A DNA stretch of 64,000 bases, from positions 5,964,651 to 6,028,650 of the forward strand of contig JABAKD010000017.1 of NCBI GenBank assembly GCA_012845835.1. The letters are read 5' to 3'. Positions 11,936 to 60,212 of the stretch are shown piece after piece. The first letter of the stretch is position 1. Every line of letters starts with the position of its first letter. The notes under the pieces were generated by a model. That model saw nothing but the letters and a program-made list of their open reading frames with translations, ran no database searches and had not been told where the DNA came from. This DNA is from Undaria pinnatifida. Its lineage: Eukaryota; Sar; Phaeophyceae; Laminariales; Alariaceae. The position numbers were made by a program, and so were the translations under genes.

Positions 11936-12177
11936 ACGGACTTCATCATAGGTGAGAACAACAACAACAAATTGGGGTTAACCATTGTTTCCTCCTCCAC
12001 CATTCCAACTTCACGCAACTTGATGCTTTGCGTTCCCACGCCCTCCAAAGTGGCTGGTGCTCTGGATCGAGACCACCCGTAGCAGTGCAGGTCGCCTTGT
12101 CGTTGGTTCTCCTCTGGGCAGACCGCAACGCCTCAACTGCTTAGGAGGTGAGACTCACATGCTACCATATGTGATAA

Positions 12178-12480: not shown

Positions 12481-12492
12481 TATATATATATA

Positions 12493-12892
12493 TATTATAA
12501 AAAATGAAAATACACTCCAGCTGTGAGATCGAAGATTTCGTCGAAACTCATCTTTGCAAGCTGTGTGTGATACTCCGATCGCGCGTATTACGAGTTGTGT
12601 GTCCTCCTTAAGGATATAGGTCGGCGACTCCCCTTACAACTACAGTGTAGCTATCAGGGTCAACAGGATGATTTTAGTCAGTCTGTGCGCGGAAACTATA
12701 AAACCCGTTTCTGAGGGGGACAAAATCTGACAGCTGTGAAGGGAAATGTAACCTTTGATCAAGTTAATCTTGTAAGTCGAATAACCGGTGAGGGGGGTGG
12801 GGCGGAGTTTTGAAGGACGTGGGGGCCTGGTTTTGATCAAAAGCGAGCGGGTTTGGAGGAGGGGGGGGGGGGGGGGGGGAAGGGGGCATATA
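12493..12892 (+). repeat. G-rich ~400-bp dispersed repeat, copy 2
   Basis: Almost base-for-base the same as 8711-9111, including the terminal poly-G run at about 12860-12880. The very high identity between copies 3.8 kb apart points to recent movement or gene conversion. Confidence 0.88.
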
Positions 12893-36274: not shown

Positions 36275-37232
36275 TGAAAGCTTACATCGAAGCGTGGAAG
36301 CTTCCATGGGAACTTCCACGGCATGGAAGCGTGGAAGCTTCCATGGAAGCTTCCCTGAAAGTAACCTCCACGGGATTTTGACGTGAAAGCTTCCACGGAA
36401 GTTACTCCCACGGAGGCTTCCGTGGAAGCTTCCACGGAATCTTTCACGGAACCTTTCACGGAACCTAACCCTAACCCCAACCCTAACCCCTAACCCTTCG
36501 TGGAAGCTTTCTTGGAAGCTTTCGTGGAAACTTTCGTGGAAGCTTTCGTGGAAGCTTTCGTAGAAGCTTTCGTGGAACCTTTCGTGGAAGGTTCCGTGGA
36601 AGCTTTCGTGGAAGCTTTCGTGGAAGCTTTCGTGGAAGCTTCCATGGAATCTTTTACGGAATCCTGCACGGAACCTATCCCTAACCCCTAACCCTTCGTC
36701 GAAGCTTTCGTGGAAGCTTTCGTGGAAGCTTTCGTGGAAGATTTCGTGGAAGTTACTTCCGTGGAAGCTTCCAAGATACTTCCATGAAAGCTTCCGTGAA
36801 AGCTTTCGTCGAAGCTACTTCCATGGAAGCTTTCGCGGAAGCTTTCGTAGAAGCTTTCGTGGAACCTTTCGTGGAAGGTTCCGTGGAAGCTTTCGTGGAA
36901 GCTTTCGTGGAAGCTTTCGTGGAAGCTTCCATGGAATCTTTTACGGAATCCTGCACGGAACCTATCCCTAACCCCTAACCCTTCGTCGAAGCTTTCGTGG
37001 AAGCTTTCGTGGAAGCTTTCGTGGAAGATTTCGTGGAAGTTACTTCCGTGGAAGCTTCCAAGATACTTCCATGAAAGCTTCCGTGAAAGCTTTCGTCGAA
37101 GCTACTTCCATGGAAGCTTTCGCGGAAGCTTTCGTGGAAGCTTCTGAGTTTTTTTTCATGGAAGCTCCCATAACTTCCATAGAAGCTTCCATGGAAGCGG
37201 TGGAAGCTTCCACGGAAGCTTTCATGAGCTTC
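36275..37232. repeat. Satellite of 12-bp GGAAGCTTTCGT units with telomere-like blocks
   Basis: Dozens of copies of a 12-bp GTGGAAGCTTTC-like unit, organised in a ~288-bp higher-order repeat (compare 36559 onward with 36847 onward) that includes CCTATCCCTAACCCCTAACC. A telomere-like ACCCTAACCCCAACCCTAAC run lies at 36467-36498. The unit contains AAGCTT and translates as VEAF repeats because 12 is a multiple of three; this is not a gene. Confidence 0.92.
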
Positions 37233-40959: not shown

Positions 40960-41067
40960 TTACGCCTCGGCGGCGACAGGGGGGGACGCGTTATCCCGGA
41001 TGAAAGCGATGATGGAATCCGCGTCTCTCATGCCCTCGTAGGGGACGGGGTTCGACTTGTCCCCGGC
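40960..41067 (-). CDS. PDI-like gene exon 12 (C terminus)
   Basis: Acceptor TCCGCAG. Encodes AGDKSNPVPYEGMRDADSII and the end SPPVAAEA before TAA at 40962-40960. No ER-retention tetrapeptide. Confidence 0.93.
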   Translation of the reverse strand, partial: AGDKSNPVPYEGMRDADSIIAFIRDNASPPVAAEA

Positions 41068-42590
41068 CTGCGGACCAATCAGACGATGAAGGGCGACGCG
41101 CGCGAACCAATCAGAGGACAAGGGACGAAACGTGCGGGTCAATCATGGGACGAAACGCGAGGCGTAATGACCAATAAAAAGACGAAATTGGCCACACGTG
41201 CAGGCAGAGAGCAAGAGGGTCAAGTCAACAGTATGTATAGAACGTATTTTTTCAGTATAAAAAACTGGCGATTAAACGTGTGAAACCTAATTGGAACAGA
41301 CCAAATCAGCAGCGTTGTTAACGCAAGTGAGTCAAATCCAAAGGGTTCATTGCGTTTTTGGCAATGCATGGCCAAATCACCTCGTTGTATTTGCATTGTG
41401 TATCGCTGTCTCGTAGGTCGTGGCCACAGAGAGAGCTTTCGCTCTATGAACAGGAGGCATCGGCGCGGACACTGGTTATGCTGGGTGTACGACGAGTGGA
41501 AATATCAGTTTAACTAATGAGAAGAACACACACTGTCACGATAGTAGCTATCGAGTGCCTCTTCATGTAAAGAGCTCCTACCCATTATCTGCTACCGAGC
41601 ACGACCCTCGACCGTCAAGGCTACCATACTACAACCAAATTAATGGACACCCCTGCCCCCCCATCCCCGACACCTAACCCCGTCAGAGCCCCAAACCCCT
41701 TCCTATACTAATTCCAAGTAATTTTCCCGCAACAAAGGGTTTCTAGTTATAAAGTCGTCAACACAATCATCGCACAAATACTAGGGGCCGAAAAACGTGA
41801 CCCGCGAGTCCAACAAAATCACAAAAATCACAAAAATTATTACAAATATCACGAAATCGAACAAAAATCACAAAACATCCCAAAAAAGACAATCACAAGA
41901 TCACAAACTATCACGACACCACAGAATCGCAAAAACCACACGCAACAAAAAACACAAAAGTCACAAAAACCATAAATCGCATAACCACCATATGGAACGT
42001 ATGACAGACCAAACACATACCAAGACAATCCATGCAGCAGCAAAACAACAGTAATTCTGCCAAACGAAGCACCGAACATAAGCGCACCTTCAAGAACATG
42101 AGGGTAGGGTAAGACTTGATCGAGAACTCCGCGGGAGGCATGTTGGCGTCCGCGTCCATCTTCGCCACCACGATAGAAGGCGTGTCGGAAAACTAAACGG
42201 AGTGCGAGCGAATCAAGGGCAGCGGCGGGCACCGGTCGGGGATAGTGAGATATTGGTTGCTGGTGGTTGGTTGAACGCATTTCTTCTGGGTAAAAAAAAG
42301 GGCAAAATACAAAATACCCCTGTCTGTACACCATATAAAACGCACGATAAAACACATCCCCCACCGGACGAACTTCAAAGGCGGATCTCTCTTACGACCA
42401 CGGGGAGGAGAGACACTGCTTGCACCAAGCGCGAAGCGCGCCGTGAGGTGTTCGGCGAGTCGCATCGCATGAAGCGCGTGAACTGCATCCTTCCGAGAAC
42501 CGCTCTCAAGACGGACTTCGGCACCTTGCGCCTACTTTCCCTCCCATGGATGACAGCGACCAATAAGGTACTTTCTTTCTGGTGCTACGG

Positions 42591-42628
<38 letters not shown>

Positions 42629-43008
42629 CACTTAAGGGGCCTTTGGGCTGCAGCGGCTCGGGCTGACCCGCGCAAGTGACCCCCCTCCCTTCCTTGTCCC
42701 TTCGCGACCTTGAGCTTTCGTGCTGCGCTGATGCTGCGCTTATTTAATCCGCAGTGGAACGGTAATCTATGCTATGCCGCTCCAAAAACAACCCACCTGC
42801 AGATTACTTTCGTCCATGGAGTAAACTGAGAGTCGCTCGTGCGAGTGGTCAAAATCTGGCGGGGCAAAATGGGGGCACTCCCCTTACCAAGGGCCTTTCT
42901 TTCTGTTTCTCCTTCACACACATCTACTTTCCAGCTTCTGGACAAGCCGTATGAAAATACGTGGAATTGTGGTGAGCTAAAGCTTTATTTTTCCCCATCC
43001 GCTGGAGG

Positions 43009-43048
<40 letters not shown>

Positions 43049-46000
43049 CAAGCCGTGTGTCACAGGTGTCGTCCCTTCTCCCCCGCGGCTCTTGCCTTCA
43101 ATTTTTTTTTATCGCGCATAGGGAATATCAATCCCATTGCTCGTCGGTTTTTTCATCGAGTGGTGCCAACTCACGCTCTCGCGCTTTCCGCAGGTCAATC
43201 TGCGCACAAGAAGAAGTCCCCACGAAATTATACGAGTCGTATGCACTCGGGGGGATTCGAGCTCACGAAACTGACCTATACCAGGCTCGAGGATAACCTG
43301 ATACGCAACCGGGGCGACCATTACATACTTATATATTCTAACACGGCGTTCTACAAACGGTAACTTACTTTTACGTCACTATCGACCTTGTCCACAACCG
43401 CACTACTGTATGTCATACCCTCATTTAATCATCTACATCGGGCAAGATCGCCACTTCGCGACCTCCATCGTTGGGGGCAGATCTCGCCAGCTCACGAACT
43501 AGATCGTTCGGTGCAGCTCGCTGTCTGATTGACGGTATCTGCGCTACCTAGATAAGGATTGCCGGATGGGGATCCCCGCATGTCATTGGCACGGTCCTTG
43601 CGCACACGCTTGCCGGGTGGGGTGGGCCCATGCATGACACCGAGTTCCTGCACGGCATCTCACAACGGTAAGCGCAGAATCTGCAGTGGATCATCTATAG
43701 ATCGCCATCCGTCAGATGTGTCAATCCTTGCAGTGAGATCGATACGACACGGCTCTTGCACAGCATCTCCGCACGGCCAACACACGACCTGCAACAGGTC
43801 ATCTAGTCTAGATCGTCCTCTGTTAGACGTTTTTACGACCTGCAACAGGTCATCTAGTCTAGATCGTTCTCTGTTAGACGTTTTTATCCTTGCAGCAGCG
43901 GGGTTCATGCGGCGCGGCTCTTTGCGTAGCAGCACCGCACAACGGAAAGAAACATAGGATGTACGGTTCGTGATGTAGATCGCGATCTCCGTGGCATGGG
44001 AGAATTCTCGAAGTGGCACATGTACAGCACGGTCCTTGCACAGGATCGCAGGAGGGCAACAAAAAAAAAAAAACGCGTGCTACGATAGAGGTAGTAGCAG
44101 TTTTTGTGTGAAAAAAATTCAAAAATAACGGGGCTCTTTAACTCAAAATCGTCGGAAATTCTGGCCATTTTTTTTTGGCATGATTACCATTGTGTACCTA
44201 GGCCATGAGGCTTTTCATCCGGTAGAAGCTTCTTTTTTTTTTCTCCAAATCAGTTTTGGGGACAGGTCTTAAGTTCCCAAATTGAGGAACCTCAGAAAAA
44301 GAGTGGTGCACCTCTCTATCAAATCAGTTGGGACAGGTCTTGAGTTGCCAAATTGAGGAACCTCAGCATAAGAGTGGTGCACCTCTCTATCGTAGCACGC
44401 GTCAGAATAGGACCTACAGTACATGATACATCGTAGTCTACTGTACATCGCGATCTGTGAGATGAGCTGATCCTTGCAGATATGAAGGATCGAGATTATG
44501 CATAGCGTGATCTGCCCAATGCGTGAATCCTCGGATACAAATACAAAGGATCCACATTATCTACTATCTAGATCGTGATTCGTCCAATGTGTGAACCCTT
44601 GGACACAAAATAGCTATATTATCGCGGTCGTGATCTGCCTGGCATGTAAATCCTTGGACACACAGGATCTGAACAATCTATAGATCGTGGCATGTCCGAT
44701 GCGTGAATCCTTGGATACAAAGGATCTATACTATCTGGATCGTGATCTGTCCGATGCGCGAATCCTTCGACTTGAAGGATCTAGATTATCTAGATCGTCA
44801 TATTTCCGAGGTGTGGATCCTTGGCCATAAAGGGATCTAAAATATCTAGATCGTCATCTGTCCGGTGCGTGAATCCTTCGAGATACACAAAGGATCCAGA
44901 TTACCTAGATCGTGAGGAGCTTTCGATATTCTCCCAAAAACCTCAGATTTGAGGAAAAAATAGAACTGCCGCCCGATACGCAACCTGATAACCTAGTGTA
45001 CGACCAAAATCGCCAAAAAAATGAACAAAATCCCGACGATTTTGGGTTAAGGAAACCGTTTCTGGCTGAAATTTCTCCCCCCATCGTAGCACGCGTCCTG
45101 TCCGATGTGTCAATCCTCAGATACAAAGGATCCGCCGTCTACTGCTAGGCCTGGGAATGGAATTTTTTTAGACATGAAAATTGGAAAAAAAAAAAAGGAA
45201 AAAAAAGTTCCATGGTCGTTCTCTACGAAAACAACTCTTTAGGAAATCAACCAATCAGCGATGGGGAAAACAAAACCACGTTGCGTAAAAAAAGCTGTTC
45301 GGAGCGCAGCGTTCACAAATAAAGCACTGCTGCCACAGGCTGCTGCCATCACCCTTTTGCTAAAAAAAAAAAGTCAGCCCACCGGGGTGCTTCTCGTACG
45401 ACGCGTATTGCTGTACAGTCCCATGCCCAGAGCGCTAACAAGCAGCGTAAACATGGACGCACGAGCGTGAACGGCCCCTTGGGCTCGGCGGCGGGCAGCA
45501 CGACGGTGCTGCCCCATGTGTGTACGAAGGGATCATGCAGTAGGGGCTGATCTCTTGTTTTCTTGGCTTCTGCTGCTGCTGCTGCTGTGCAAGCCCCTGG
45601 GCCGTGCTGCACCGCGCATGGTATACGGCGCCGCCCGTATACCTCCGTGGCGGCGCGCCCCACCTCTAGCCCACGTGCACGTTGTTTGCTGTACGTGCCG
45701 CTGGGCTTGAGTCTTTGCCAAGGCTTCTTTCTTAGCACTGGCCTGGGGTCAGACTCCAAGGTTGTAGTAGTGTATTTATCTGTACTCGCGCATTCTTACT
45801 CGTATGATACGAGTCATTGTCAACCGTACCACGTACCTATTTCTACGGAAATGTAATAACCGCGCTATATTCATGAAATTATCAAAACGGTCCTTACATT
45901 CGCATCAAATTGTTGTTTGTTTTGCTTGAAGATTTCATGTGCACGATAACAGATGCATCCGCATCTGGAAGCTCGGGACAGGTCGTTTCCCGCTGCATCA

Positions 46001-49000
46001 AGGCCCAATCACAGACTACCTCCCTCTTGTCTCGATGGCTCCTGCTGTGATGGCAGTCGCTCGGCGTGCGGATACGCCCGCTCGTGTCTGGCGCCGTTTG
46101 CCCTACACGACGAAGACATGTATTGGTGTTTGCCTTGACTTTTTTCGTTTTTCCCCGGGGTTCTTCCTTTTTTCTTCTGTATAAGCTATGCAAATGATTT
46201 TTTTGGAACTTCTGCTCAGGAGGCAGCAAAAAGGCGAAGTTTGATCACTGATTTCTCGTCGGCAATTTATTGGATCCGAGCGCGGATTGCTTTGCTGTCT
46301 CCGCCAAGCCCCAGCCAAGGGGAAGGCACGCATTTCTTCCATATTAAATTCAAGAATTTCTCCCCTGCGGAGCAAAAGACGAATGAAAGCACCAAACAAT
46401 CGTTTCCCCGCACATTTCCGGCCGATTAGACTTGAAAACACAACGGAAAACGCTAAATTATGTGTATTGCCCTCTGTACGCACTGATTACAAGTGTCTGT
46501 GCAATCTCAGGGCCCAACACGTCGCAGGCGACGAGTGTTCTTTGATCTTCTGTCAATCGTCCATACATACTAAATCCAAGTAAAACGGATACAGGCAAAT
46601 TTTCTTCTTTAAACAAATTTTTGCAATTTTTTGCAGTTTTCATCGAATAGATCTGCAATTTTTGGAAAAATTTGCGGGACATTTCGGGGTTCATTCCCAG
46701 GCCTAACTGTCGACCGTGAATCCTTGCAGATATAGGACCCAGACTATCTACATCGCGATACGTCCGGCGTGTGAACCCTTGGGCGTAAAGGGATCTGGAT
46801 TTCCTAAATCGTGCCCTGTCCTGTGTGTGAAGCCTACAGGATAAAACGGATCTATTATTAGAATATCTACACCATGCTCTGTCCAATGGGCAAAATCCTA
46901 ATCCATGCAAACGCTTTTCGATGTCCAAGGACAGTGCGGGATAGTATAATTCGACGCAAACCGACGAGCAGCACGAACGCAAAACTCTCTGGACTAAAAA
47001 AAGTAAGACGCACACTCGGGGGGGGGGGGGGGAAGGAAAGACACCTGTGACCACGACGGCTTGAACAGCAGATCATCCAATGCACAATCTCCTACGAATT
47101 GAGCTGGAAAGCAAGCGCAATGATGAAAAATACACCATTGAAAATACAGTATATATACCTCCGAAGCAACTTGTGCGTAGACCGGCTTAAGCTCTTTGCA
47201 GTGGCCGCACCAGGGAGCGTAAAACTCAAGCATCACGTCCTTTCCCTCCTCCTTCACGACCGCATCAAAGTTGGCAAGGCTCACCTGCACCAAGGGGCCA
47301 CGATGGGTAGGGGGAGAGGGGGGGCAAAGGGTAGGGTGGGGGGGGGGGGCAGTAGGGAGGGAGTGGGTGCGGAAGGGGCAGTAAGCAAGTAAACGCGGGG
47401 GGGTGAGAGAGGCGGACATGGGGGGGGGGGGACGGAAAGCGGTGGGGGAAAGGTAACGGGTGGGAGAGTGCGGGGAGTGGGGTGGCTAGATAGGGTGGAG
47501 ATACGGTGGCGGTGGGGGGAAAGTGGTGTGGGTGGGGGATGGGGGGGGGGGGGAGTACTCAGTTTGTGCATGGCCGTAGTTTTACGACCATAGACCCTCG
47601 CATCGCTACTATGCAGGGACGGAGCACATCGGGGTTTCACCAACCAGGCAGACATTGCTTGCACCAAGCACGAAGCGCCGTGAGGTGTTCGGTGAGTCGC
47701 ATGAAGGGTGAGCTGCATCCTACCAAGAACAACTAACGGTGGAGGGAAGGGGAGGGAACCGGGGGGGGACCTCACCCCGGGGAGACCTCACCCCGGGGAG
47801 ATCGCTTTCCCTTCCCCTTTTCTCGTCCCCATCGTCGGAAGCCGCTCAAGAAGATTTTCCGATAACAAAATAATGTTGGTGGTGTGTTTATTGTTGTTTT
47901 TGTTGGTGTTAGTGTTGGTGTTTCACGTACGTTGAGACCCCCAACGAATTACAGAACACAGCAAAAAAACGATGCTCCTAACGCGACCAGTTTTCCAGTA
48001 CAAACTACGCACACCATGTCTTGCAGGAATAAAAACCACCAGCGGAGGCGTGCGTTCTGCATGGGAGGGCGGGGGGGGGGGGGGGGGGGGGGGGGGGGGC
48101 GAGCGCAGGCTTGACTCACCACGACGACATCGCTATCGGCCTCATCGTCCCCGTCATCCATAGCCGAGGCCATAGGATTATCCTGATCCATCTCTTCTAC
48201 GTGGATAGGCTGCAAAAGAAAAAGGAAAACAGCAGGGTGGGTGGGTGGGCGCGTGGGTGGGTGCGTGAGTGGGTGGGTCAGTGTGTGGGTAGGTGGGTTA
48301 GGTGGGAGGGGGTGGAGGTGGGTGTGGGGATTTGGGTGGCGATGGGAGGAGCGATCGGGGTGGGGGCAAGGGTGGGGGTGGGGAGTGGCGGTGGGGTTGG
48401 CGGTAGGGTTAGGTTGGGTCTTAGGGGTTTGGATGGGGGTAGGGTCGGGGGTCAGGGCGGGGGGAGGGGGTGATCAGCGATGGGAGCCGGGAGGGGATTT
48501 TGGGTGGGTGGGAAGGGGGAGGGTATTCGGCGGCTGCGAAAGAGGATTATCCTGATCCGTGTCTTCCACGTGGAAAGGATGAAAGCACGGCGGGAACATC
48601 GGCAGGCGGCAGCAAGGCCGGGCGGGAGTAAGGGCAGGTTGGTAGGAGTGCGGTTGGGGACAGGGAGGAAGAAGGGGGGGACGTGAGGGGCCGGAGGGTC
48701 GGGAGCTTCATCCAGTACATGCCAGGTACAAGAGAGGTAAACATTAGTAGATACGAAGCCGTTGGTAGCAGGCTAGCATGATGGATACCAACGGTGGGGG
48801 GGGGAAGGGTTCGAGCACTGTATCCTGATCAATAGATCGCGCAGCAGATTAAGAGGGGAGGGAGGGGAGGGGGGGAGAGGGGGGGGGTCAAGGGTTGTGT
48901 CCGACGCAATAGATGATACAGCAAAAAAGAGAAGACAGGGATGGGCATTGTGTGTATGTGGGACACGTCCTACGATAGAGGTGAGGCATTTTCGTCTTGC

Positions 49001-52000
49001 CTTCTGAGGGTGGTGGGTTGAGTAGCTCTACATACCTGCTTTTGGGCAAAAACTGATTTTTGAGGAAAGACTGAAAGTGCATCCCGTCGCTGTACAAGAA
49101 AAAAAAAAAAAGACGGAAAAACACAAATGACATCTCGCCGATATTCTCGACAGATCGAGCCCTGCGGTTAAGAAAACGTGTAAGCCAAAAAGAGCTAAAT
49201 CTTGATACCTCCATCGAACCACGCGTCACTGGTCACTTTATTACACCCAACTAACTAACGTGAAAGAGCTCGAACCAGTTGTTGATTACTAGCGCGGAAG
49301 GAGGAAGGGCGCGAGGGGGGGGGGGGGGGGGCGGGGGGAGGGGAGGGGGGTGTACTCCTGTGCATTAAACTGCGCAGCAGAAATGAGCCGGGATACCTTG
49401 ATTTCCCCCTTGACGTAGGCCTCGACGAACGCGGCCACAGCGGCCTCACTGAAGTCGCCATCCATGCGGTAGAAGTAGTTGTCCTTCCGGATACCGACGG
49501 AGACGCCTCTCTCGTCGGGCTTCTTGTGCTCGTCGGGGAACTATTAAAAGTAAACACGAAAACGAAAACGAAATTCAAAACGATTATGAAAATGAGAATG
49601 AGAATGCGAATGAGCATGAAAATGAGAACGAGACCAAGACCTAGAACGAAAACGAGAAACTGAAAATGAAATCGACGTTGAAAAAAAATAACGAAAACAG
49701 ACACGAAACAGGACAAGAGAAAATAACAGTGTGTGCAATTCTGAATCGGGAAAAAAATCATGTCCCAAAGGGGGTGCGTTGAAACTCAAAACACGCAAAA
49801 AATAAACGAAAAAGGACGATTCAACTCCTCGTCCCCAAGGTTCGTTCGTCCCCCCTCCTCCCTTGTCTCGCATCGCGAAGAAGCCACACAAATCCACCCG
49901 TCGAAACCCAGGACGACAAGCGAGAGCTGACACAAACTCCAGAAAGGTTTTCATACGAAAACAAGCGCCTAGTATTTTGTAAAAGGAACAAAAAAAACGC
50001 GACCGACAAAATATACCACAACACAAGAGATGGTCTATCGCTTGGTCGCTAGATGGCTGTTATCACTGGCTGCTCTTATCGCACGGCCTACTCCGTGGTA
50101 ATGTCCCTTGCAATACGACGTGGGGTTACCTTCTATCTGCGTGACTGCCGAGGCGGTGGGAGGCAGTGGTACACCAGCCACCACTGATGGCCAGCTTCAC
50201 AAACTTAGAACAATGACCCAAACCTACCACCTATATATAGTAGTAACAAGTGCCCTACTACTACTTTAAATAAAAAATAACACACCGGTATCATACTACT
50301 ACCTGATAAAACATCAGTTAATGAGAGGTTATCAGTACATCAAAGTGTTCAGATAAGTACTAGTATGCCAATTTGTTCATACATGACGGGTAACATAATA
50401 CAGTGCCACCTTGTGTTGGGTTTTGATTTATGAAACTTGCTAAAGACGGGCGATCGATCTAGTACGCAGCTTGCAAAGATGAGTATCGACCCTAAGTCGT
50501 CGAACTCACAGCTGACATCGTTACAATATCATCATGAAATAACCCAACCCACCGATCGTATGGCACCAGATCATGGAACAACAATCTGAATTATCCCGCG
50601 TTCAAACAAACGGAAGATTGCGCCGCATTCCATTCCCGAAACAACAATAGTCATCTTCCTTAGGTTAAATAAGTGGGGGGGGGGGGGTGAAAACGCTCGG
50701 AAAAAAAAAAAACAGAAAAAAAACACGCCCCAAATATGCATCCCGCAAAACAAAATCTTAAAACTAAAGCAAAAATCCAATTTCGCCAAGAGTCGTAGGG
50801 TAGTCCCCCGTTCGCCCTAACCTGCACTCGCGAGGCCAGAAAAATCAACTCGTCGAATTCCGTGACGACATACGAGAGAGAGAGAAAGTTCACACAAAAC
50901 CTAGAATACCAAGACCCTGGGGGGAAAAAGACAACAACTATGCATATTAGTTTTTTCAAAAAGGTGAAAATCAAATCACGCCCAAAAAAAGGAACACAAG
51001 ACACCAAAGAAGAACAACCTTGCCGAAGGAACAAAAATCTCGCACAAACGAAATACCGAAACAAGAGCAATCCAAACGTTGTTCATCGGGAACGGGATCA
51101 CCCCCCTCCCACCTTGAATCGCGAGGCCAGCGAAATCATGTCGTCGAAGTCCGCCACGACGTACGAGAGCTCTTTCTTGGCCCTAGCCTTCGCTACCGCG
51201 CGCAGGGTGGCCGCCAGCTCGTCGAACGTCTCGGGCTTGTCCACGATGTCCACCTATCAAGGGGACACAAGGTATACATGTGATAAAAATACCCTTGCTG
51301 CCATCGAGGTACCCCGACGTGGCTACTTGGTCTCTGGTGGTCGAGGAGGTGCTGCCCGTCTTCGTTGTAATACCGACTGCGCGTTTTAATCCCATTCTTG
51401 TGGTATGAAAACACTACCTATTTTAGCGCCGCACTCCCGACATGCGCACAAAACACTTGTAGTTAGGCTGGGATAACTTTAGGAGTTGGAAACGGGTTAA
51501 TAATAGGCCATGGGGTTATTATCCACCAGATTGAAGCTTCATTTCACAGTTGGAGGTCAGGTTTGGGTGAGAGGTGTAGGGGTCCTCAGGCGAGGAGCCC
51601 CAACAAAAAAAAGGTGTACCCTTTTTACCGTGGCATTTGTTTGAAGTGAGGTACACCTGATGCAGTCTTGTTGAATTCTAAACCCGTGTGGATAGACTGG
51701 GACCAAGGGGGGTGGTGTCCGCAAGCCGTGTAAATCGATCGAACCTTGGTTGACAAAGTATGATCAGAAGGTCGAGACAACACAGTGCGTGTTGCCGCTC
51801 GTTAGCACAATGTATAACGGCCCGTTCCAGCGGCTTTCGCCGACCAGGCTCCCGGCATACACCACCATTTCTAAGCCCTAACCCCAACCTTAACCCATCC
51901 TACTCTACCATACCCTACCCTACCCTACCTACCCTATCCTACCCTACCCTCCTGCTCTACCCTACCCTACCCTACCCTACCCTACCCTACCCTACCCTAC

Positions 52001-55000
52001 CCTACCACTGCCCTACCGTACGGTACAAGCATCACCGACCTGAGCGTGAACTGTCAGGTCCGGAAGGCCAATCTTCTCATATCTGACCCTCGCTTTTCCA
52101 GGAAAGCAAGACTAGGCGAGAGGTCACAGCCTTATCGACCCTACCGTACCGTACCGTACCGTACCCTACCTTGCCCTACCCTCACCCTCCCCTCCCCTCC
52201 CCCATCCTACCCCACCCACCCTACCCTACCCTACCTTGCCCTACCCCACCCTTCCCTATACGGCTCACCAACCTGAGCTTAAGGTGTCAGATCCGGCAGG
52301 CCGACCTTTTCGTAGCTGATCCCGCCCCGGTAAACAGGCCTACGACAATGGTTACAGCCTTAGCGAGCCTCCCCTACCCCACCCGGTCCTACCCTACCCT
52401 TCCCTACCCTACCTTGCTCTACACCGCCCTACCCAAATACCCTACCCCACCCTCGTGCCTACCCTACACGCATCACCAACCTGAGCGTCAACGGTCAGCT
52501 CCGGCAGGCCTATCTCCTCGTATCTGATCCCGCTTTCCCCGGTAAGCAGGTGTAAGAGAGGCGTCACGGCCTAAATGACCTACCCTACCCTACCCTTTTT
52601 TGTTAACCTTTCTTTTCCCACACTTCTACTTTCCAGCTTCTGGACAAGCCGTGGTCACAGGTGTCGTCTCTTCTTCCCCCCCGGTTCTTGCCTTCAACTT
52701 TTATCGCGCAGAGGATTCAGCAATCCCACTGGTCGTCGATTTTCATCGAGTGTTGCTAAATCACGCTCTCGCGTTTTCCGCATCTTAACATGTGCACAAT
52801 AAAAAGTCCCTACCAATTTTTTCGAGTATGCACTCGGGGGGATTCGAACTCACGAAACTGACCTATACCAGGCTCGAGGATAACCTGATACGCCACCGGG
52901 GCGACCGGCTACCCTACCCTAGTACCCAAGTATCCTGCTACACCCTACCCTATCCGCAGCACCAACCTGAGCGTAAGCGGTCAGCTCCGGCAGGCCGAGC
53001 TCCTCGTATCTGATCCCGCTCTCCCAGGTAAACAGGCCCACGAGAGGTGTCACAGCCTTAGCGACCCACATCTGAAGCGACTCCGGGTCCAAAGGCCCGT
53101 TGCCTGCAGGGCAAGGGGGGTGGCAGGAGGATGGACGGGGGGGGGTAGGCAGGCACGAAAGGGGTAGTTTGCGGTCAGTCACACGCTACGGTAGAGATAC
53201 ACTTGCTCCTTTTGTTTTCCTTCTGAGGGTGTTAGCTTGTGGAGCTCTATCATGGACGTCACCCAAAAAACTGACTTTGAGGAAACCCGGAAGTGCAACC
53301 CGAGGAGCAAACCCCATTGGCCTATAGGCATACAAACATATATGTCTATATATTACAAAATAACGAGTACAATATTTGGACGATTTCGGGTTAACGCCTT
53401 TCCAACTTGAAACCCGCTTCTGGGGACAAATTACTTGGTAGTAGTATAGGGGGAACGTTGGGGCTCCAAAGGGGTTAAGGGGCCTCGTCACTCCGAAATC
53501 ATGATTGCCTAAAATCGGTATATCTTAATATCTCAATCACAGTGCACGTCGTCGCTGCAGGGTTTTGTGGACGACGGACGAAACATGGAGAGGGGAGGGG
53601 GGCAGCCACAGGCGGGGGCTGGCGAAGGGGAAGGGGGGCAAATAGGACGGAAGGGTAATAGAGGGCGGAGGGAGAGCGCGGCCGGCGCGAAATGCACGGT
53701 GTGCGTTCCGTGCCGTGGGGGCACGGACGATCGGATAATCGGGGAAGGAGAGGAGGGGCATTGGGTCACCCCGTGAATCTTCCTCCTCCTCCTCCTCCTC
53801 CTCCTCCTCGTCCTCCTCGCCCATCCCCCCTCCTCCTGCTCTTCCTCAACCAGTTCATGCCCCACCTTCCCACCCCGCTTCTCCATAAATTTCGTCCCTT
53901 TCTCCCTCCGCCACCCGTTCCACCAACTAATACGTCGAACGCTCGCCACCCTCTTCCCTTCGGTAAGCAGACAAATCATCATCATCATCTTCGTCGCCGT
54001 CATCTCTAACATGGTCGTCAATATCCCTCCGTCCATCATCAATAGCACACCCCCCATCCCCGTCCCCCGTCCCCCCGTTTCCGCAGCTGGCTAACCTGAT
54101 CGACGAGCGAACCTCTCATTCCCCCTCGACATACCATGGCAGCACAGTCGCAAGCGCAAGTTAAAGCCCGATCCCAAGCCCCAGTACAATCGACCCTAAG
54201 CGCTATAGCTCAGTCCCAAGCGCACAAGAAAGCGCTGGCTCAATCCTACTTCCAATCCCGATCCCAATCAAAAAATTAATCCCAAGGTAAATCTCACTCC
54301 CAATCCCGATCCCGATCGAAATCCCAATCCCAATTTCAATCCCAGTCCAAGTCCCGTGAACGCGGAGCCGCCCTTCGGCAGCTACAAAAGCGACACCAGA
54401 AGCTATAGAAGCAGCAGCAGCAGCTAGGAGAAAAACTCAGAGGAGTGGTGGGAGCCCTCCCAGAGAAAAGGCGACAGCAACAGCAGGCAGCACAGCAGCA
54501 CAGCAGCGGTACCAGCAGCAGCAGCAGCAGCAGCGGTAACGCGATAACGGTAGCAGCCATTGGAACAAGGCCCATACAAATCGAACGCGCCCCCACCACG
54601 GAGGCGTTCTCATGCGACGGGCCTCAGGGGCTCATTAAACTGTAAACTGCAATAAAACTCAGTATGGACATCCCGTTCTGTGTTTCTCTGTGGCGCCGGG
54701 GGGGGCGGGGCGGGGGGGGGGGGGGGGGCATGTGACGAAGTTGAGGGGGTCATAAATCTGTAAAATGCTCAAATCTCAAATGGACATTCTGTCGTGCTGT
54801 GATTTTCTGGGGAGGGGGGGGGGGGGGGGGGGGGGGGGGCTCGGGTCGGGGGGGCATGTAATGAACTTCAGGGGCCCATAAACCTGTATACTGCGAGTAC
54901 CTTAGTTTGGATATTCTGTTGCTCTGTGTTCTTCTGGGGGGAGGGGGGGGGGGGGGGGTTATCCCTGACCGTAACCCTGACTCCTATACTAAAAAAAAAA

Positions 55001-56428
55001 GCCAGAATAATAGTATAAACACACATGCTACCGGTAGAGGTGCACTGGCTCTTTTTTGCCTTCTGAGGGTGGTGGTGTGGCTTGATACAACTCCATACCT
55101 CACACAAAAACGGATTTTTGAGTAAACTGAAAGGGTGAGCCGATAGGAACACGCGCATGGCTGAGGTACACAAAACATACACCATACCACTTATGTCCGG
55201 AAATGTGAGAAACGTTGACTTTGAATATTCATGTTCAGAGGTGGGTTATATTTCTGGACAGAGCGGCAACCTGCCAAACAAAAACACGACATCACGGCGA
55301 TTGATGGTTACAACCCGCTTAGCACCGCACTCCCGACATGGAGACAAAACACTTGCAGTTAGAGTAGTAACACTCTAGGAGGTGGAAACAGAAGCCCCCG
55401 TCACTCACAACATATTTTGGCAAAAGCAAAGCGTCTATCACGGCACAAGTTATACCATATCGTATTCTCCCACAGGACCGTGTCTACAACGCTTCCCGTC
55501 CAAAACGAGAACGAGGACGCTTGGAGGGGGGGGGGCGAGCGGGCCACGTGCTCTCACCCGGATAGCGCTGCTTGGGGCGGTCCCCCTCGACTTGGAAGCG
55601 CTTGGCCGGGTAGGCCATCACTCGCCCCGCCGTGTACTTCATCTTCTCCAGCACGTCGTCCTCTGGATGTAGTTATTGCCAGACAAGAAACGCCGGAAAC
55701 AAAGCGAATGCGATGGAAAAAATAAAATGTGTTACGAACGAAGGCAACTGCAAAAATAGTGCGGACCGAAACAGAAGCAGCGAAAACAAAATTACATCGA
55801 GAAGAAGAAAAAAAAAATTGCCGCGAAACAACGAGACAACACGCAACGACAACAAACGCAACGGAAAAGCAATGCAGCAGAATACAATGAGCGCAACACT
55901 GCTGCTGTAGGGAAGAATATTCGCCATATATCGCAACGGCACCTACGCTATATTTTAGGAGAAAAACACAATAGGAATGAGTTCCATCAAACAAAACGAA
56001 GGCAGGGGGGGCTCGGCGGAGCGGGGCGGAGGGGGGGGGGGATTGTACTGCCCCCCCGCTCACCTGTGGCCAACCCGAAGCGAACTCCCATCTGCGCCAT
56101 TCTCGAAGCCGCAGTTCTAAAGGTCATCACGTCCTGCAAGACAGAAACATCAAGCAACGAAAAATATCAGCGCAGCAGCAACAGCACAAGCACCAGCAAC
56201 GGCAACAGCAACAACAGGCTCAACACCAGCAGCAGCAGCAACAACCACAACGTCCACATCATCAACAGGTACGAAACATGTGAGACCAGCAATGAAAGCA
56301 ACGGCAAAAGAAAAAATAGCAACAGTATCAACAACGGCATGAACGCCAGCAGTAACAACAGCACCAACAGCAACGGTAACGGCAACACCAACACCACCAC
56401 CAACACCACCACCACCACCACCACCACC

Positions 56429-56464
<36 letters not shown>

Positions 56465-58918
56465 GCAACTCTCTCTCCCCCCCCTCTCCCTCACGGCCTT
56501 GCGACTGACCTCGCCGTGTGTGTCTTCGTTGTAATAGGCGATCACGCAGGGGGACGTAGGTTCCGCGTCAATAAACTTCTCCACGTCCGCCTGATCACAG
56601 CGGAGCAGGTCCGATCAGGGCAGCACAAGAAGGGGCGGAGAGAACAAAATTGATCACACGTGGAGGGCGGTGGAGGTGGGGGCGAGGACGGATCAGACGC
56701 GGAGGGGGAAGAAGTAAAAAAGGATCTGCGGCGGCGGTGCGAGGCTATGGATCGTACCCCGTATGCGCGACACCTACTTCAACCCTGATGAGGGGACAAA
56801 ACGCAAGGAAATACAGCAGGAGCTTTCAACCGTCTCTCACCCCCCCCTCCAGAGAATACACCCTACCTGAACAACAAATCCTTGCAATACTCCCCCGAAA
56901 AAGTAGGTGAGGTTCGTGTGTGCGAGAGGGAAGTCTTCGACCCCCCCCCCGCCCCCGCCCCCCTTCCCCACTCGTACCAAACCCATCCCCATGTCAGCGA
57001 GGTCCGTGCGCGCGGGTGCTAAGTTGAGGTACCCGTATTCACCGTACCCCTTACCCCCCCTGCCACCGCCTCCGCCTCAAAAAAAACTCTGAACATGTCA
57101 CTGACTTCGGTGTGCGCACGTGCAGCATTCTCTTACCAATGCCCATTATAGCCCCTCCTCCCCCTCCACCCCCCCCCCCCTTCCACCTCCTACCACACCG
57201 GGCGGTGAGGTCCGTGTAAGTGGGTAAAGTTAATGGTTCCGCCCTTCTCGTAAATCTCTCGCGTACCCCGGGTACACACTAGAGTATGACCAAAACAACC
57301 AGATTTGGTACCCGGGTACACCAGAGTGTATACCCTACGTAACCGGGTACACACTCCAGTCTAGGTAAAACAGTCTAGTTGGTACTCGGGTGCACCAGAG
57401 CATATACTCATCCTACAAAACACCCCCACAAATCCACTGCCCACATTGGTGAGGTCCGTCTGCGCGGGTGCGGAGTCTCGGCAGCCTTACCAGCCGTACC
57501 CCCCTCCCATCCCTCCCCTTCACCTCCTACCAAACCTCTCAGCATGTCAGCGACGTCCGCGTTCACGGGTGAGGAGTCTCCGTACCCATACCCACCGTAC
57601 CACCCCGCCCCCCACGGCCTCCCCTCCCTCTCCTACCAACCCTGACCTTGTCGGTAATCGAGAGCAATTTCTTAAGGTCCCCATTCGCCAATCTCCCGGC
57701 GTACCCGGGTACGAGCTTGAGTATGACCAAACAAAAAAATGGTACACGAGTATCCCAGAGTATACACCCTACTGCGGTATACCGGGCACCCCACACTACA
57801 TACTGTACCAAAAGTATCCTAGCAAAAGCTCTCACCATGTCGGTGAGGTCCGTGTGCGCGGGTGCGGAGTCTCCGTACCCATACCCACCGTACCCCATCC
57901 CCCCACCCATGCCTCCCATCATTCCTGCCAAGCCAGGCATCATGTCCCCCATCCCCCCGTATCCCCCGCCGTATCCTCCTCCGTACCCTTCCCCCCCGTA
58001 CATGTCATAGCCAGCCATCATCTCTGGAACGGAAAGTAAGCGGTGCGCGAGGAGGGGGGCGGGGGGGTGGGGGGGGGCGGGGGTAGGTAGGATAAGATTG
58101 AAGCCTTGAGATTAACAATAAAATGTTGAGACAGTAACGGAAAAATTACTAGTTCACAAATTTAGGCTACCAACACCACCACCATCCCTACTCCCAATCC
58201 CTCCTAAAAATCCCTCCGCAGGACCTAGTTTGGAAGGATTCAATCGACACCATTAGCACCTCCATCACCGCCACCTCAACCTCAATCGCCAACCCCCGCC
58301 CCCCCTTTCCAAACCCCGCCGCAGGATCCCGTGAGTCAAACGGTTTACAGCCGCACCACCACCACCACCACCACTCCACCACCACCACCACCCCACCACC
58401 ACCACCACCCCACCACCACCACCACCATCACCATCGCCACGATCCCCACAGCACCTCCACCACCACCAAATCGATGCAATAAAAAATGCTTTCGAAGTCG
58501 TTTTCCATGACCAGCACCACCATTGATCATCCAGCACCACAACCAAGCCCATCACCACCACCGCCAACATACCTATACTGTACGACAACCCTTCAAACTT
58601 TCAAAGTCCACGTCATCATAGTGGCCGCAGACCGCCCGTACGGTCAGCCTCAGCAACAGCACCACCATCACCACCACACCAAAACCACCGAGAACAACAC
58701 CAACAACAACAACCACCGCCACCACCACCACCACCGCCCCAACCCCTCCACCCACGCCCCAACCCCCAACCCCCAGCTACCCTCTCTTAACGCCAGTCCC
58801 TCCTTGCAATCCAGGAGTTATTCTCACTTTCGAAGTCGATATCATCGTACTGGCCGCAAGCGGGCCGCACGGCCAGCCCCAGCAAGGCCACCGCCGCACG
58901 AGCAAGCTTCCCCGGCAT
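40960..58918 (-). CDS. Protein disulfide isomerase-like protein, 12 exons, 461 aa
   Basis: Spliced model, 5' to 3': 58918-58828, 58023-57836, 56590-56510, 56133-56064, 55662-55558, 53103-52967, 51253-51113, 49540-49397, 48209-48120, 47284-47159, 42192-42088, 41067-40960. All introns are GT-AG, all joins keep phase, and the CDS totals 1386 nt. Residues 1-22 are a signal peptide; 31-80 are Gly/Met/Tyr-rich (YGGGYGGG); about 86-325 match the PDI b and b' regions; 320-349 are an acidic linker; 350-455 are a thioredoxin a' domain with CGHC at 375-378 and the cis-Pro motif SYPT (Pro420). It should oxidise or isomerise disulfides in the secretory pathway. Classical PDIs of ~500 aa have two CGHC domains and a KDEL-type tail; here the first domain is replaced and the C terminus is VAAEA. 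The start has a CACCATG context. The span is 18 kb, with introns of 0.4-5 kb. Confidence 0.93.
41650..41760 (-). repeat. GGAAACCC dispersed repeat fragment in intron 11
   Basis: Reverse copy of the 11770 repeat: GAGCCCCAAACCCCTTCCTA, CAAGTAATTTTC, AAGGGTTTCTAG. Confidence 0.55.
42088..42192 (-). CDS. PDI-like gene exon 11 (a' domain, cis-Pro)
   Basis: Acceptor CGTTTAG, donor TTGAAG|GTGCGC; 35 codons. Encodes IVVAKMDADAN and FSIKSYPTLMFLK with the cis-proline loop facing the CGHC site. Intron 10 before it is about 5 kb. Confidence 0.93.
42590..42627 (+). repeat. Uninterrupted poly-G tract in intron 10
   Basis: About 37 consecutive G on the plus strand (C in the PDI transcript). Length may be affected by assembly. 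Confidence 0.8.
42911..43319 (-). mobile_element. tRNA-derived SINE, copy 3, interrupted by a nested insertion
   Basis: Reverse orientation: the tRNA-like head is at 43240-43319 (B box as GGATTCGAGCTC in plus orientation) and the body at 43057-43240. The SINE 3' end is split by an insertion at 42951-43042 with a 14-bp duplication. Lies in intron 10 in the same orientation as the PDI gene. Confidence 0.88.
42951..43042 (+). mobile_element. 5'-truncated retroelement tail with poly-A and target duplication
   Basis: A ~60-bp sequence (TGGTGAGCTAAAGCTTTATT ... GCTGGAGGAT) ends in about 32 A and is flanked by TCTGGACAAGCCGT on both sides (42937-42950 and 43043-43056). This is the signature of target-primed reverse transcription. 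A diverged relative is at 34446-34516. Confidence 0.88.
43560..43965. repeat. Intronic minisatellite with 51-bp direct repeat
   Basis: CGACCTGCAACAGGTCATCT and CTGTTAGACGTTTTTA recur at 43785 and 43836 (51-bp period) inside longer diverged CTTGCACAGCATCTC-type units. Confidence 0.7.
44073..44402. mobile_element. MITE family A, copy 2
   Basis: Ends ACGCGTGCTACGATAGAGGT (44073) and its near-perfect inverse (44381-44402). A ~78-bp segment at the right side (GGGACAGGTCTT to GGTGCACCTCTCTATC) is tandemly duplicated. Confidence 0.85.
44410..45145. repeat. ~65-bp intronic minisatellite (GTGAATCCTTGGATACAAAG)
   Basis: About seven units with TCYGATGCGTGAATCCTTGG, AAAGGATCTA, ATTATCTAGATCGTGATCTG. 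Another block of the same repeat is at 46715-46880. A MITE A end (CATCGTAGCACGCGT) sits at 45083-45097. Confidence 0.8.
45146..46714. other. Intron 10 interior; no gene seen
   Basis: ORFs up to 198 aa (46458-47054, minus) have no motifs. AAACGGTCCTTACA near 45890 resembles the hairpin arms seen at 6420. Confidence 0.45.
46715..46880. repeat. Second block of the 65-bp intronic minisatellite
   Basis: GTGAATCCTTGCAGATATAG, GTGAACCCTTGGGCGTAAAG and related units match those at 44410-45145. Confidence 0.7.
47030..47075 (+). repeat. SINE 3'-end fragment
   Basis: GGAAAGACACCTGTGACCAC then GACGGCTTGAACAGC matches the 3' part of the SINE family (ACACCTGTGACCACGGCTTG). Confidence 0.6.
47159..47284 (-). 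CDS. PDI-like gene exon 10 (CGHC active site)
   Basis: Acceptor TTGGTGCAG, donor TCGGAG|GTATAT; 42 codons. Contains [20 protein letters not shown], the catalytic thioredoxin motif. Confidence 0.95.
47290..47570 (+). repeat. G-rich low-complexity tract in intron 9
   Basis: GGGTGGGGG-type runs on the plus strand, i.e. pyrimidine-rich in the PDI pre-mRNA just upstream of exon 10. Confidence 0.75.
48063..48100 (+). repeat. Poly-G tract adjoining exon 9 donor
   Basis: About 30 G interrupted by one C, only 20 bp downstream (in transcript sense) of the exon 9 donor site. Confidence 0.75.
48120..48209 (-). CDS. PDI-like gene exon 9 (acidic linker)
   Basis: Acceptor TTTTGCAG, donor GTCGTG|GTGAGT; 30 codons. 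Encodes PIHVEEMDQDNP then an Asp/Glu-rich run (DDGDDEADSD) joining b' to a'. Confidence 0.9.
48235..48530 (+). repeat. GTGGGTGGG-type tract in intron 8
   Basis: Degenerate GTGGGTGG/GGGGTTGGG units. Poly-C/T-rich in transcript sense, placed as a long polypyrimidine zone before exon 9. Confidence 0.75.
48533..48582 (-). repeat. Decayed copy of PDI exon 9 5' end
   Basis: In transcript sense reads FHVEDTDQDNP, matching IHVEEMDQDNP of exon 9, located upstream of the real exon. The acceptor AG is lost (ATC). Confidence 0.7.
48963..49226. mobile_element. MITE family A, copy 3
   Basis: Ends ACACGTCCTACGATAGAGGT and, inverted, ACGCGTGGTTCGATGGAGGT. Interior has CTTCTGAGGGTGGTGG and a poly-A run; copies at 53184 and 55018 share this interior. 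Confidence 0.8.
49397..49540 (-). CDS. PDI-like gene exon 8 (b' domain)
   Basis: Acceptor TTTAATAG, donor ATCAAG|GTATCC; 48 codons. Encodes GIRKDNYFYRMDGDFS and AAFVEAYVKGEIK, typical of the last strand and helix of a PDI b' domain. Confidence 0.93.
50829..50887 (-). repeat. Decayed copy of PDI exon 7 3' end with donor
   Basis: Sense reading LSYVVTEFDELIFLASRVQ matches LSYVVADFDDMISLASRFK of exon 7 and is followed by GTTAGG, a possible donor. No acceptor precedes it. Located in intron 7, downstream of the real exon. Confidence 0.8.
51113..51253 (-). CDS. PDI-like gene exon 7 (b' domain)
   Basis: Acceptor TTGATAG, donor TTCAAG|GTGGGA; 47 codons, phase 0 to 0. Encodes VDIVDKPETFDELAATLRAV and ELSYVVADFDDM. 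A decayed copy of its 3' end lies at 50829-50887. Confidence 0.92.
52040..52135 (-). repeat. PDI exon 6 partial copy C (frameshifted)
   Basis: Matches the last ~95 nt of exon 6 including CTCAG|GTCGGT at the donor; single-base indels break the frame. Confidence 0.85.
52272..52365 (-). repeat. PDI exon 6 partial copy B (frameshifted)
   Basis: Matches KAVT...GLFTG then shifts frame by a 2-nt loss; donor CTCAG|GTTGGT is intact. Confidence 0.85.
52481..52570 (-). CDS. PDI exon 6 partial copy A, possible in-frame cassette exon
   Basis: 90 nt with a candidate acceptor (CATTTAG before 52570) and donor (CTCAG|GTTGGT). It encodes 30 residues without stop: AVTPLLHLLTGESGIRYEEI, then GLPELTVDAQ. It would enter the mRNA in phase 0 between exons 6 and 7. 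Its polypyrimidine tract is poor, so it may be only a surviving duplicate. A SINE separates it from real exon 6. Confidence 0.4.
52596..52908 (-). mobile_element. tRNA-derived SINE, copy 4
   Basis: Complete reverse copy inserted in the CCCTA array, so the flanking CTACCCTACCC on both sides may be target duplication or array. Head with GATTCGAACTC (B box complement) at 52841-52851. Confidence 0.88.
52967..53103 (-). CDS. PDI-like gene exon 6 (b' domain)
   Basis: Acceptor CCCTGCAG, donor CTCAG|GTTGGT; phase 1 to 0. Encodes LQMWVAKAVTPLVGLFTW and the ESGIRYEELGLPEL segment. Three degenerate partial copies lie downstream in intron 6. Confidence 0.92.
53184..53490 (+). repeat. MITE A fragment fused to GGAAACCC dispersed repeat
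   Basis: Left end ACACGCTACGGTAGAGATAC and CCTTCTGAGGGTG interior, then at 53395 the ACTTGAAACCCGCTTCTGGG repeat. Lies in intron 5. Confidence 0.6.
53775..53830 (+). repeat. CTC microsatellite
   Basis: About 12 CTC/CCT units (53780-53816) in intron 5. Confidence 0.9.
54140..54360 (+). repeat. AATCCCGATCCC tract in intron 5
   Basis: Hexameric AATCCC/GATCCC units (54240-54350) preceded by CAAGCGCAAG motifs; no gene. Confidence 0.65.
54690..54960 (+). repeat. Three ~120-bp units with poly-G runs
   Basis: Each unit has GGGGSTCATAAAYCTGTAWA, GGACATTCTGT, TGTGATTTTCTGGGG and a long G run (54703-54729, 54806-54839, 54938-54958). A G-run minisatellite in intron 5. Confidence 0.75.
55018..55150 (+). 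repeat. MITE A left-end fragment
   Basis: ACACATGCTACCGGTAGAGG followed by CTTCTGAGGGTGGTGG and AAAAACGGATTTTTGAG, as in the copy at 48963; the right end is not found. Confidence 0.6.
55558..55662 (-). CDS. PDI-like gene exon 5
   Basis: Acceptor CATCCAG, donor CCGG|GTGAGA; phase 1 to 1. Encodes 35 residues including YTAGRVMAYPAKRFQVEGDR. Confidence 0.9.
56064..56133 (-). CDS. PDI-like gene exon 4 (b domain)
   Basis: Acceptor TCTTGCAG, donor ACAG|GTGAGC. Encodes DVMTFRTAASRMAQMGVRFG, the conserved F...A helix and beta strand of the b domain. Phase 0 to 1. Confidence 0.9.
56165..56460 (+). repeat. CAR/AAC and ACC trinucleotide tracts in intron 3
   Basis: AGCAACAGCA-type repeats, then (ACC)n at 56392-56442 and (AAC)n to 56463. 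Long ORFs on both strands here are artefacts. Confidence 0.9.
56510..56590 (-). CDS. PDI-like gene exon 3 (b domain)
   Basis: 27 codons, phase 0 to 0. Acceptor GTGATCAG, donor GAG|GTCAGT. Encodes ADVEKFIDAEPTSPCVIAYY, the first strand and helix of a thioredoxin-like b domain. Confidence 0.9.
56988..57127 (-). repeat. PDI exon 2 3'-end copies (most decayed pair)
   Basis: 56988-57045 reads YGEYGYLNLAPARTDLADM in transcript sense, matching YGGYGYGDSAPAHTDLTDM. 57093-57127 is a shorter copy. The donor GT is lost in the first. Confidence 0.7.
57193..57235 (-). repeat. PDI exon 2 3'-end copy (short)
   Basis: GGTGAGGTCCGTGT on the plus strand matches the exon 2 end; the rest has diverged. Confidence 0.55.
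57436..57492 (-). repeat. PDI exon 2 3'-end copy
   Basis: Sense reading GCRDSAPAQTDLTN with an upstream stop. The flanking GTACCCGGGTACAC intron motif is duplicated with it. Confidence 0.75.
57546..57610 (-). repeat. PDI exon 2 3'-end copy (best preserved)
   Basis: Sense reading YGGYGYGDSSPVNADVADM, open frame; the donor is changed to G|CTGAGA. Confidence 0.8.
57836..58023 (-). CDS. PDI-like gene exon 2 (Gly/Met/Tyr-rich)
   Basis: Acceptor TTCCAG before 58023; donor GACATG|GTGAGA at 57836. Encodes the GYGGGYGGGYGG / GMMGGMGGGMGYGG region and the start of the b domain (DSAPAHTDLTDM). Its 3' end has several decayed copies downstream. Confidence 0.9.
58340..58770 (+). repeat. CAC/ACC microsatellite region in intron 1
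   Basis: (CAC)n runs at 58353-58436 and 58660-58740. Gly/Val/Trp-rich ORFs on the minus strand are artefacts. Confidence 0.9.
58592..58640 (-). repeat. Decayed copy of PDI exon 1 3' end
   Basis: Sense reading LTVRAVCGHYDDVDFES matches LAVRPACGQYDDIDFE-S of exon 1. The donor is mutated (AAAGTTTGA in place of AAAGTGAGA). Confidence 0.85.
58828..58918 (-). CDS. PDI-like gene exon 1 (signal peptide)
   Basis: ATG at 58918-58916. Encodes a 22-residue signal peptide (core ALLGLAV) followed by QYDDIDFE. Donor GAAA|GTGAGA, phase 1. Confidence 0.9.
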
Positions 58919-59480: not shown

Positions 59481-59504
59481 CGATTTGGTACCGTGTATAG
59501 GAAC

Positions 59505-59816
59505 CGGTCGCCCCGGTGGCGTATCAGGTTATCCTCGAGCCTGGTATAGGTCAGTTTCGTGAGTTCGAGCACCGCCGATTGCATACTCGTATATATTCGT
59601 TGGGACTTTTTCTTGCGCACAATTTGACTTGCGGAAAGCGCGAGAGCGTGAGATAGCAACACTCGATGAAGAATCGACGAGCAATGGGATTGCTGAACCC
59701 TATGCGCGATAAAAAATCCAAGGCAAGAACCAGGGGGGAGAAGGGACGGCACCTGTGACCACGGGCTTGTCCAGAAGCTGGAAAGTAGAAGTGTGAAGAA
59801 GAAAAAAGTAAAAAAA
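59505..59816 (+). mobile_element. tRNA-derived SINE, copy 5, with target-site duplication
   Basis: Full tRNA-like head (GGTGGCGTATCAGGTTA, GAGTTCGAGCACCGCC), body and A-rich tail. Flanked by ATAGGAAC at 59497-59504 and 59817-59824. Confidence 0.92.
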
Positions 59817-60212
59817 ATAGGAACACAATAGACGGCAGCTCAATGCTCGTATTCACACGTCCAATATCAAACGCGTACGTACACGATTCATAGATTGGCC
59901 CAGCACAAAACTGCATCCGCATCTTCGGAAGGGACAAACATCGCGGAAGCTGATGCAAATGTAAAAGGGCTGCGGACGAATTCCTCGTACAAAATACGAG
60001 TACGACATGTGAACGAGTTCCTTTCATTGCCCGGTTTGGCTGACAACCCATTTTCATCTGTTCACCTAAGGCTTCATCTTTGAACATTTATTGGCCACGT
60101 GTCACGAGGGGCGGAAGGACGGCGGCCGGTTGCCGAGAAAGCGATCCCCCACAGGCCCGAAAACAAAGCCCGATGGGGCAGCAAGCTTACACCGACATGT
60201 ACCGGTATGTAC

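Follow-up and report, generated by a model that had tools for sequence, protein, structure and literature searches.

Human alternatively spliced introns are said to have originated from tandem arrays, judging by the title of a study by Zhuo et al. dating from 2007. In the potato RdRp gene (PMC4974935), a tandem duplicate spans an existing border between intron and exon and includes its splice signals, as at the locus of the brown alga Undaria pinnatifida described here; the potato copy, however, yielded a new intron as well as an additional portion of exon, whereas here the copies are degenerate, often multiple, and located inside an existing intron. In the model of Rogers (1989; cited in PMC4974935) and in the Drosophila cases of intron gain by exonic tandem duplication (PMC2891723), intron sequence is derived from exon sequence, as here, but neither the duplication of a proto-splice site inside an exon nor a new intron is shown by the present data. 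The gene-modifying internal tandem repeats and minisatellites of human genes form head-to-tail arrays within genes, as the present copies do; compared with those (PMC2812944), the units here are mostly old and unequal, and are recognizable mainly by their exon part. A minisatellite consisting of many near-identical units was rejected, since 33 of the 34 copies found in all are only 72-93% identical to their exon, with 1 to 6 copies per edge. No report of genome-wide exon-edge arrays was found among the papers listed by literature searches, judged by title and abstract.

The window, i.e., the whole stretch of 64,000 nucleotides analyzed, carries a PDI-like gene of 12 exons on the minus strand (40960..58918). 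Once joined, the exons, all on (-), form a 1386-nt frame encoding 461 amino acids without any internal stop, and GT-AG borders are present in 11/11 introns. The protein matches Thioredoxin and Thioredoxin_6 in Pfam and protein disulfide-isomerases in the PDB, and it contains one CGHC site. Each exon, together with 20 nt on either side, was compared by alignment with both strands of the entire 64 kb, and 15 shuffles per exon served as controls. The earlier note on this DNA had claimed that exons 1, 2, 6, 7, and 9 have partial copies inside neighboring introns, and exactly these five exons were recovered, with 10 matches at 72-87% identity. All 10 outscore the best of the 15 shuffles of their respective exon, which means that a self-alignment in which the copies are no more similar to the exons than random intron sequence was not obtained. 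The remaining 7/12 exons, namely exons 3 (56510-56590), 4 (56064-56133), 5 (55558-55662), 8 (49397-49540), 10 (47159-47284), 11 (42088-42192), and 12 (40960-41067), show no copy on either strand of the 64 kb.

The copies of exons 1, 2, 6, and 7 correspond to the 3' ends of these exons and lie downstream, while that of exon 9 corresponds to its 5' end and lies upstream, just as had been described. All of them are on the minus strand. Exon 1 (58828-58918) is the source of one donor-side copy (58597..58656; exon positions 34-91 plus the donor GT; score 55, 78%). Exon 2 (57836-58023) gave four to five donor-side copies, four of which were aligned: 57525..57642 (positions 90-188 plus 19 nt of intron; score 108, 84%), 57448..57517 (positions 107-182; score 79, 87%), 57082..57184 (positions 99-188 plus 12 nt; score 44, 72%), and 56986..57058 (positions 120-188 plus 4 nt; score 71, 79%). 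Exon 6 (52967-53103) is the source of three donor-side copies: copy 1 (52461..52583; positions 35-137 plus the donor and 20 nt; score 146, 84%), copy 2 (52254..52369; score 121, 84%), and copy 3 (52029..52141; score 98, 79%). This array is also visible with blastn, in the form of repeats within 51896-53069. Exon 7 (51113-51253) has one donor-side copy (50820..50878; positions 85-141 plus the donor GT; score 63, 81%), and exon 9 (48120-48209) has one acceptor-side copy (48543..48584; positions -5 to 36; score 54, 86%), in the alignment of which the acceptor AG reads AT. The alignments of 9/10 copies extend to the splice junction; that of one exon 2 copy ends 6 nt before it and is extended across it by nhmmer. 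The latter program additionally gave the fifth, weaker copy of exon 2 (56876..56945, (-); E 1.6e-5) and, downstream of exon 9, a weak candidate for a copy of its 3' edge (47761..47861, (-); E 0.0042), both of which are outside the statistics, as well as a doubtful second copy of exon 7 (49849-49928; E 0.11).

No antisense match of a PDI exon was listed on searching both strands of the 64 kb, and none was located beyond the adjacent intron; nor does any copy belong to the 12-exon frame of the PDI gene. Introner elements were rejected because the copies adjoin their own exon and no PDI exon has a match elsewhere in the window. On comparing exon 2 with the whole genome, at least three places were matched, all of them in the PDI gene among the matches listed. 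Exon 2 encodes a Gly/Tyr-rich stretch and the PDI introns carry CCTAC, CAC, and G-run repeats, which are features that could give rise to chance or low-complexity similarity; with 10/10 PDI matches above all the shuffles and past the complexity filter, and 34 sense matches versus 0 antisense in the enlarged set of exons described below, this explanation can practically be dismissed.

Around exon 2, the copies were said to carry along a piece of flanking intron, and such a piece does recur. The stretch 57185..57447 (-), which carries GTACCCGGGTACAC and is duplicated together with the exon edge, aligns over 137 nt at 85% identity (z 17.8) with the piece following the real exon 2 donor (57643-57835). 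With at most 3 mismatches, GTACCCGGGTACAC has 14 matches in the window (mean 5 and largest value 13 in shuffles), and 8 of these fall within 57264-57714.

The window also contains other repeats. A dispersed repeat of 315 bp (52594..52908, (+)) is embedded in the CCTAC tract that separates exon 6 from its copy 1; it is 87% identical to 59504-59821, which has the opposite orientation, it shows CTACCCTA on both sides, and it was apparently inserted into the CCTAC tract at a later stage. Frames judged by eye to be similar to this dispersed repeat occur near 4100-4447, 12133-12633, and 43013-43363. The CCCTA pentamer tract of intron 6 (51880-52600) has a telomere-like CCCTAA at one end, and CCTAACCC, which is similar to this tract, lies within an array at 36464-36497; the stretch 36497-37143 is an array of a 12-bp unit, contained in a tandem repeat of 287 bp at 96%. 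In the PDI gene, about 100 bp of intron 10 (42410-42510) resemble, by eye, a part of intron 9 (47640-47740). Long frames with Cys/His repeats at 26427-27200 and 30252-31637 seem to resemble EsV-1-7 domain proteins, and the long frames at 18021-22285 a Helitron-type helicase.

The same test was applied to 57 exon matches of the CCT chaperonin and to 16 of the 130 kinesin matches in the genome from which the window was taken (511,146,479 bp in 68 contigs). The borders of these exons are the ends of HMM matches, some of which have internal stops, and are therefore approximate. The matches kept comprise at least 15 exonic nt, have a complexity above 0.3, and are located less than 2 kb away, so that the 2-kb nearness is imposed by the filter. 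The effect of this filter was to reduce the CCT matches from 35 to 23 (from 15 to 9 exons) and those of kinesin from 3 to 1, the number of PDI matches remaining 10. Two of the CCT exons filtered out, C22:19416121 (one match) and C34:13709384 (three matches), had intron-only matches more than 3 kb off and on the wrong side, without any exon sequence. Under one filter set, edge copies were found at 5/12 PDI, 9/57 CCT, and 1/8 kinesin exons, and at none of another 8 kinesin exons subjected to the same test. This amounts to 15 of the 85 exons tested, with 16 edges and 34 sense copies, the CCT exon C13:3481168 having copies of both its 5' and its 3' edges. No antisense match was found beside these 34 copies in 77 exons (12 PDI, 57 CCT, and 8 kinesin). 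The 3'-edge copies are located downstream in 26/26 cases and the 5'-edge copies upstream in 8/8, and this side rule holds at 16/16 edges (p 3e-5 versus even placement). All but one of the 34 copies come within 12 nt of the exon edge, although these edges are approximate in the case of CCT and kinesin; at exon C29:12921670, the copy kept stops short of the end of the HMM match.

Outside the PDI gene, edge copies are thus present at 10/73 exons (95% interval 7-24%), which rules out the idea that this gene alone is affected, and the recurrence within a single gene, previously regarded as unusual, loses its exceptional character. The PDI gene is richer in copies than the others (Fisher p 0.033), but it was chosen for its copies; among its intron windows, 15/59 have a direct partner, versus 78/499 in the CCT and kinesin genes.

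The copies are very probably the fossils of pervasive local tandem duplication, which hits exon edges about as often as other non-coding DNA. A segment running from inside an exon to the next intron would be duplicated in head-to-tail order. One repeat, which stays attached to the remainder of the exon, would retain the role of exon edge and splice site, while the other one, within the intron, would be spliced out and decay freely. Further rounds would produce arrays and a longer intron. Since the attached repeat remains the exon edge and the other one is spliced out, copies of 3' edges are expected downstream and those of 5' edges upstream. Slippage, unequal exchange, or break repair would be the actual mutation.

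A unit that crosses an exon-intron border must include intron sequence, so that the intron part must have been duplicated too. Intron parts were compared at 15 edges, the 3' edge of C13:3481168 being left out, and the exon's own intron part significantly matches that of a copy at 9 of them (z up to 17.8): PDI exons 1, 2, and 6, C29:7297203, C13:3481168 (5'), C34:1212909, C29:12921670, C34:1209021, and C13:3488778. The likeness at exon 1 (z 4.4) lies in a stretch rich in simple CAC repeats; at both PDI exons 1 and 6, simple repeats abound in the intron parts, and the shuffles correct for them only partly. At C29:12914769, an intron match exists between copies only and none with the exon's own intron. 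Among the 15 edges, PDI exons 7 and 9, C18:1443065, C29:12919193, and the kinesin exon C33 showed no significant intron match. The steps from copy to copy are near-regular in one CCT array (84, 83, 161, 87, and 83 nt), in another (94, 92, and 174), and at PDI exon 2 (108, 341, and 105), amount to 212 and 228 at PDI exon 6, and are irregular in other arrays (146, 274, 139, and 171). Old junctions between copies have become blurred, and in the youngest case exon and copy are non-contiguous. The same 237.5-kb sample contains tandem duplications that are young and clean, their units measuring 26-287 bp. The intron part shared at 9/15 edges and the near-regular steps in some arrays bear out tandem duplication across exon-intron borders, as originally suggested; the mechanism is ordinary and it is the scale that is notable.

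The youngest case is a copy of the 5' edge of a kinesin exon (C33:2480997-2481052; 56 nt, 96% identity), which is separated by an 80-nt unrelated spacer and has no intron homology, and is therefore not a clean tandem duplication. Along with the four further edges without any significant intron match, it might mean that some or many of the copies are templated insertions of a short exon piece into a nearby intron, resulting from break repair or template switching. Inverted and wrong-side copies should then have been produced, but there are 0 antisense copies and 0/34 are misplaced, and the exon's intron part was duplicated as well at the 9 edges listed above, which makes this origin rather unlikely for the copies in general. 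The kinesin C33 copy itself may be a templated insertion. It is preceded by a pyrimidine tract and AG and directly followed by GTAAGA, so that, on sequence grounds, it resembles a 49-nt cassette exon ready for use and may be a candidate for one. As regards the earlier suggestion that new cassette exons could arise in this way, there is no evidence for it in the PDI gene, and this one kinesin copy looks like a possible instance.

No whole-exon copies were found at the 16 edges, which led us to reject mutually exclusive or duplicated exons. About 3.4 whole-exon copies would be expected under free placement (P 0.010), on taking the nearest offset as the unit; the offset of exon 6, 486, includes the 315-bp insert, and without the latter the P-value for the deficit is about 0.02 (calculated by hand). 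It is as if such duplications were lost, and harmful ones would have been removed by selection.

Whether exon edges are duplicated more often than other DNA was assessed with the same masking and threshold for edges and other 120-nt windows, a partner being looked for within 2 kb. That splice sites or exon edges are duplication hot spots, driven by transcription or R-loops, would be in line with the presence of copies at 5/12 PDI and 9/57 CCT exons; direct partners, however, were found for 14/106 exon-edge windows, 93/558 intron windows (edge versus intron, p 0.47), and 63/507 windows outside these genes. This explanation was accordingly rejected as quite improbable. Inverted partners numbered 0, 11, and 6, respectively. 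The non-exon windows, when pooled, include 156/1065 with a direct and 17 with an inverted partner, and the windows overlapping exons 13/118 and 0. In a coarser run, PDI edges had 4/22 direct and 0 inverted partners versus 58/342 direct and 9 inverted for evenly spaced segments. In the counts with 120-nt windows, simple repeats led to the exclusion of 11/24 PDI, 33/114 CCT, and 4/16 kinesin edge windows, and the edge set includes the two outermost exon ends of the PDI gene. These windows are non-independent and overlap with the partners of one another, and unrecognized exons may be present among the intron windows. Tandem repeats account for 7.7% of the sample, which is gene-centered; a report on the Ectocarpus genome gives 3.35%, with a partly different method (PMC12477816).

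The fate of the copies agrees with the proposal that only the copy attached to the rest of the exon is kept under selection. The comparison between exons and copies gave pS 0.263 and pN 0.135, and the ratio of 0.51 is the value for one constrained and one free lineage, as in a gene and its pseudogene. The divergence is star-like: p is 0.167 between exon and copy and 0.262 between copies on pooled data, with the same direction in 7/7 arrays. At the 455 sites covered by at least two copies, 276 are invariant, 167 have some but not all copies identical to the exon, 7 show one and the same difference from the exon in every copy, and 5 follow other patterns. Changes assigned to the copies are more frequent at third codon positions (0.182 versus 0.147 and 0.100), an excess which serial copying can explain; a brief coding constraint on the copies may also account for it. 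At sequence level, neither pN/pS nor the divergence pattern pointed to selection acting on the copies, and they are probably neutral for splicing.

Another explanation would be that the copies are functional, i.e., that selection maintains them as alternative exons, cassette exons, splice-site decoys, or regulators of splicing. The donor GT is kept, by eye, in 13/17 copies reaching an unambiguous donor, the short aligned part is free of in-frame stops in 7/10 PDI copies, and the kinesin C33 copy has the splice signals mentioned above. However, a GT retention of about 0.70 is expected under free decay at 16% divergence, which is close to the value observed. This donor count omits the six C29:12914769 copies, in which the donor is unclear, and C29:12919193, C29:12921670, and one exon 2 copy, which end before the donor; the copies counted are non-independent, and local alignment favors the better-kept parts. 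Moreover, deletions of 1-2 nt occur in 3/10 PDI copies and in-frame stops in 3/10, the exon 9 copy has lost its AG, and both the pN/pS ratio and the star-like divergence fit a lack of constraint. Function of this kind is therefore highly improbable for the copies as a whole, and fossils of local tandem duplication remain the reading we adopt. The mechanism proposed in the earlier note is right, and its scope was too narrow.

The mean intron length is about 704 bp in Ectocarpus, as compared with a longer mean of 1,057 bp (PMC4421812) or 1,203 bp (PMC6507550) in the kelp Saccharina japonica, so that the greater length calls for a cause. The usual explanation is transposons: they explain the growth of the Sargassum genome (PMC12089773) and make up 20.1% of the intron sequence in Ectocarpus (PMC12477816). 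Old tandem duplications lying within introns fade because both copies drift. When a duplication reaches into an exon, selection preserves one of the two copies and the other drifts, and the event therefore stays recognizable, and roughly datable, long afterwards. The copies described here illustrate one route of intron growth in a large brown-algal genome. Genome-wide counts of edge copies would measure both the growth of introns by duplication and the supply of spare splice sites. It is a tentative possibility that in brown algae with large genomes, local tandem duplication may be, beside transposons, a main lengthener of introns, that about one-sixth of the exons, their edges being hit at the background rate, may have a reservoir of ready splice sites in the form of edge copies, from which cassette exons would occasionally be recruited, the kinesin C33 copy being a candidate, and that edge copies may serve as a clock of intron growth.
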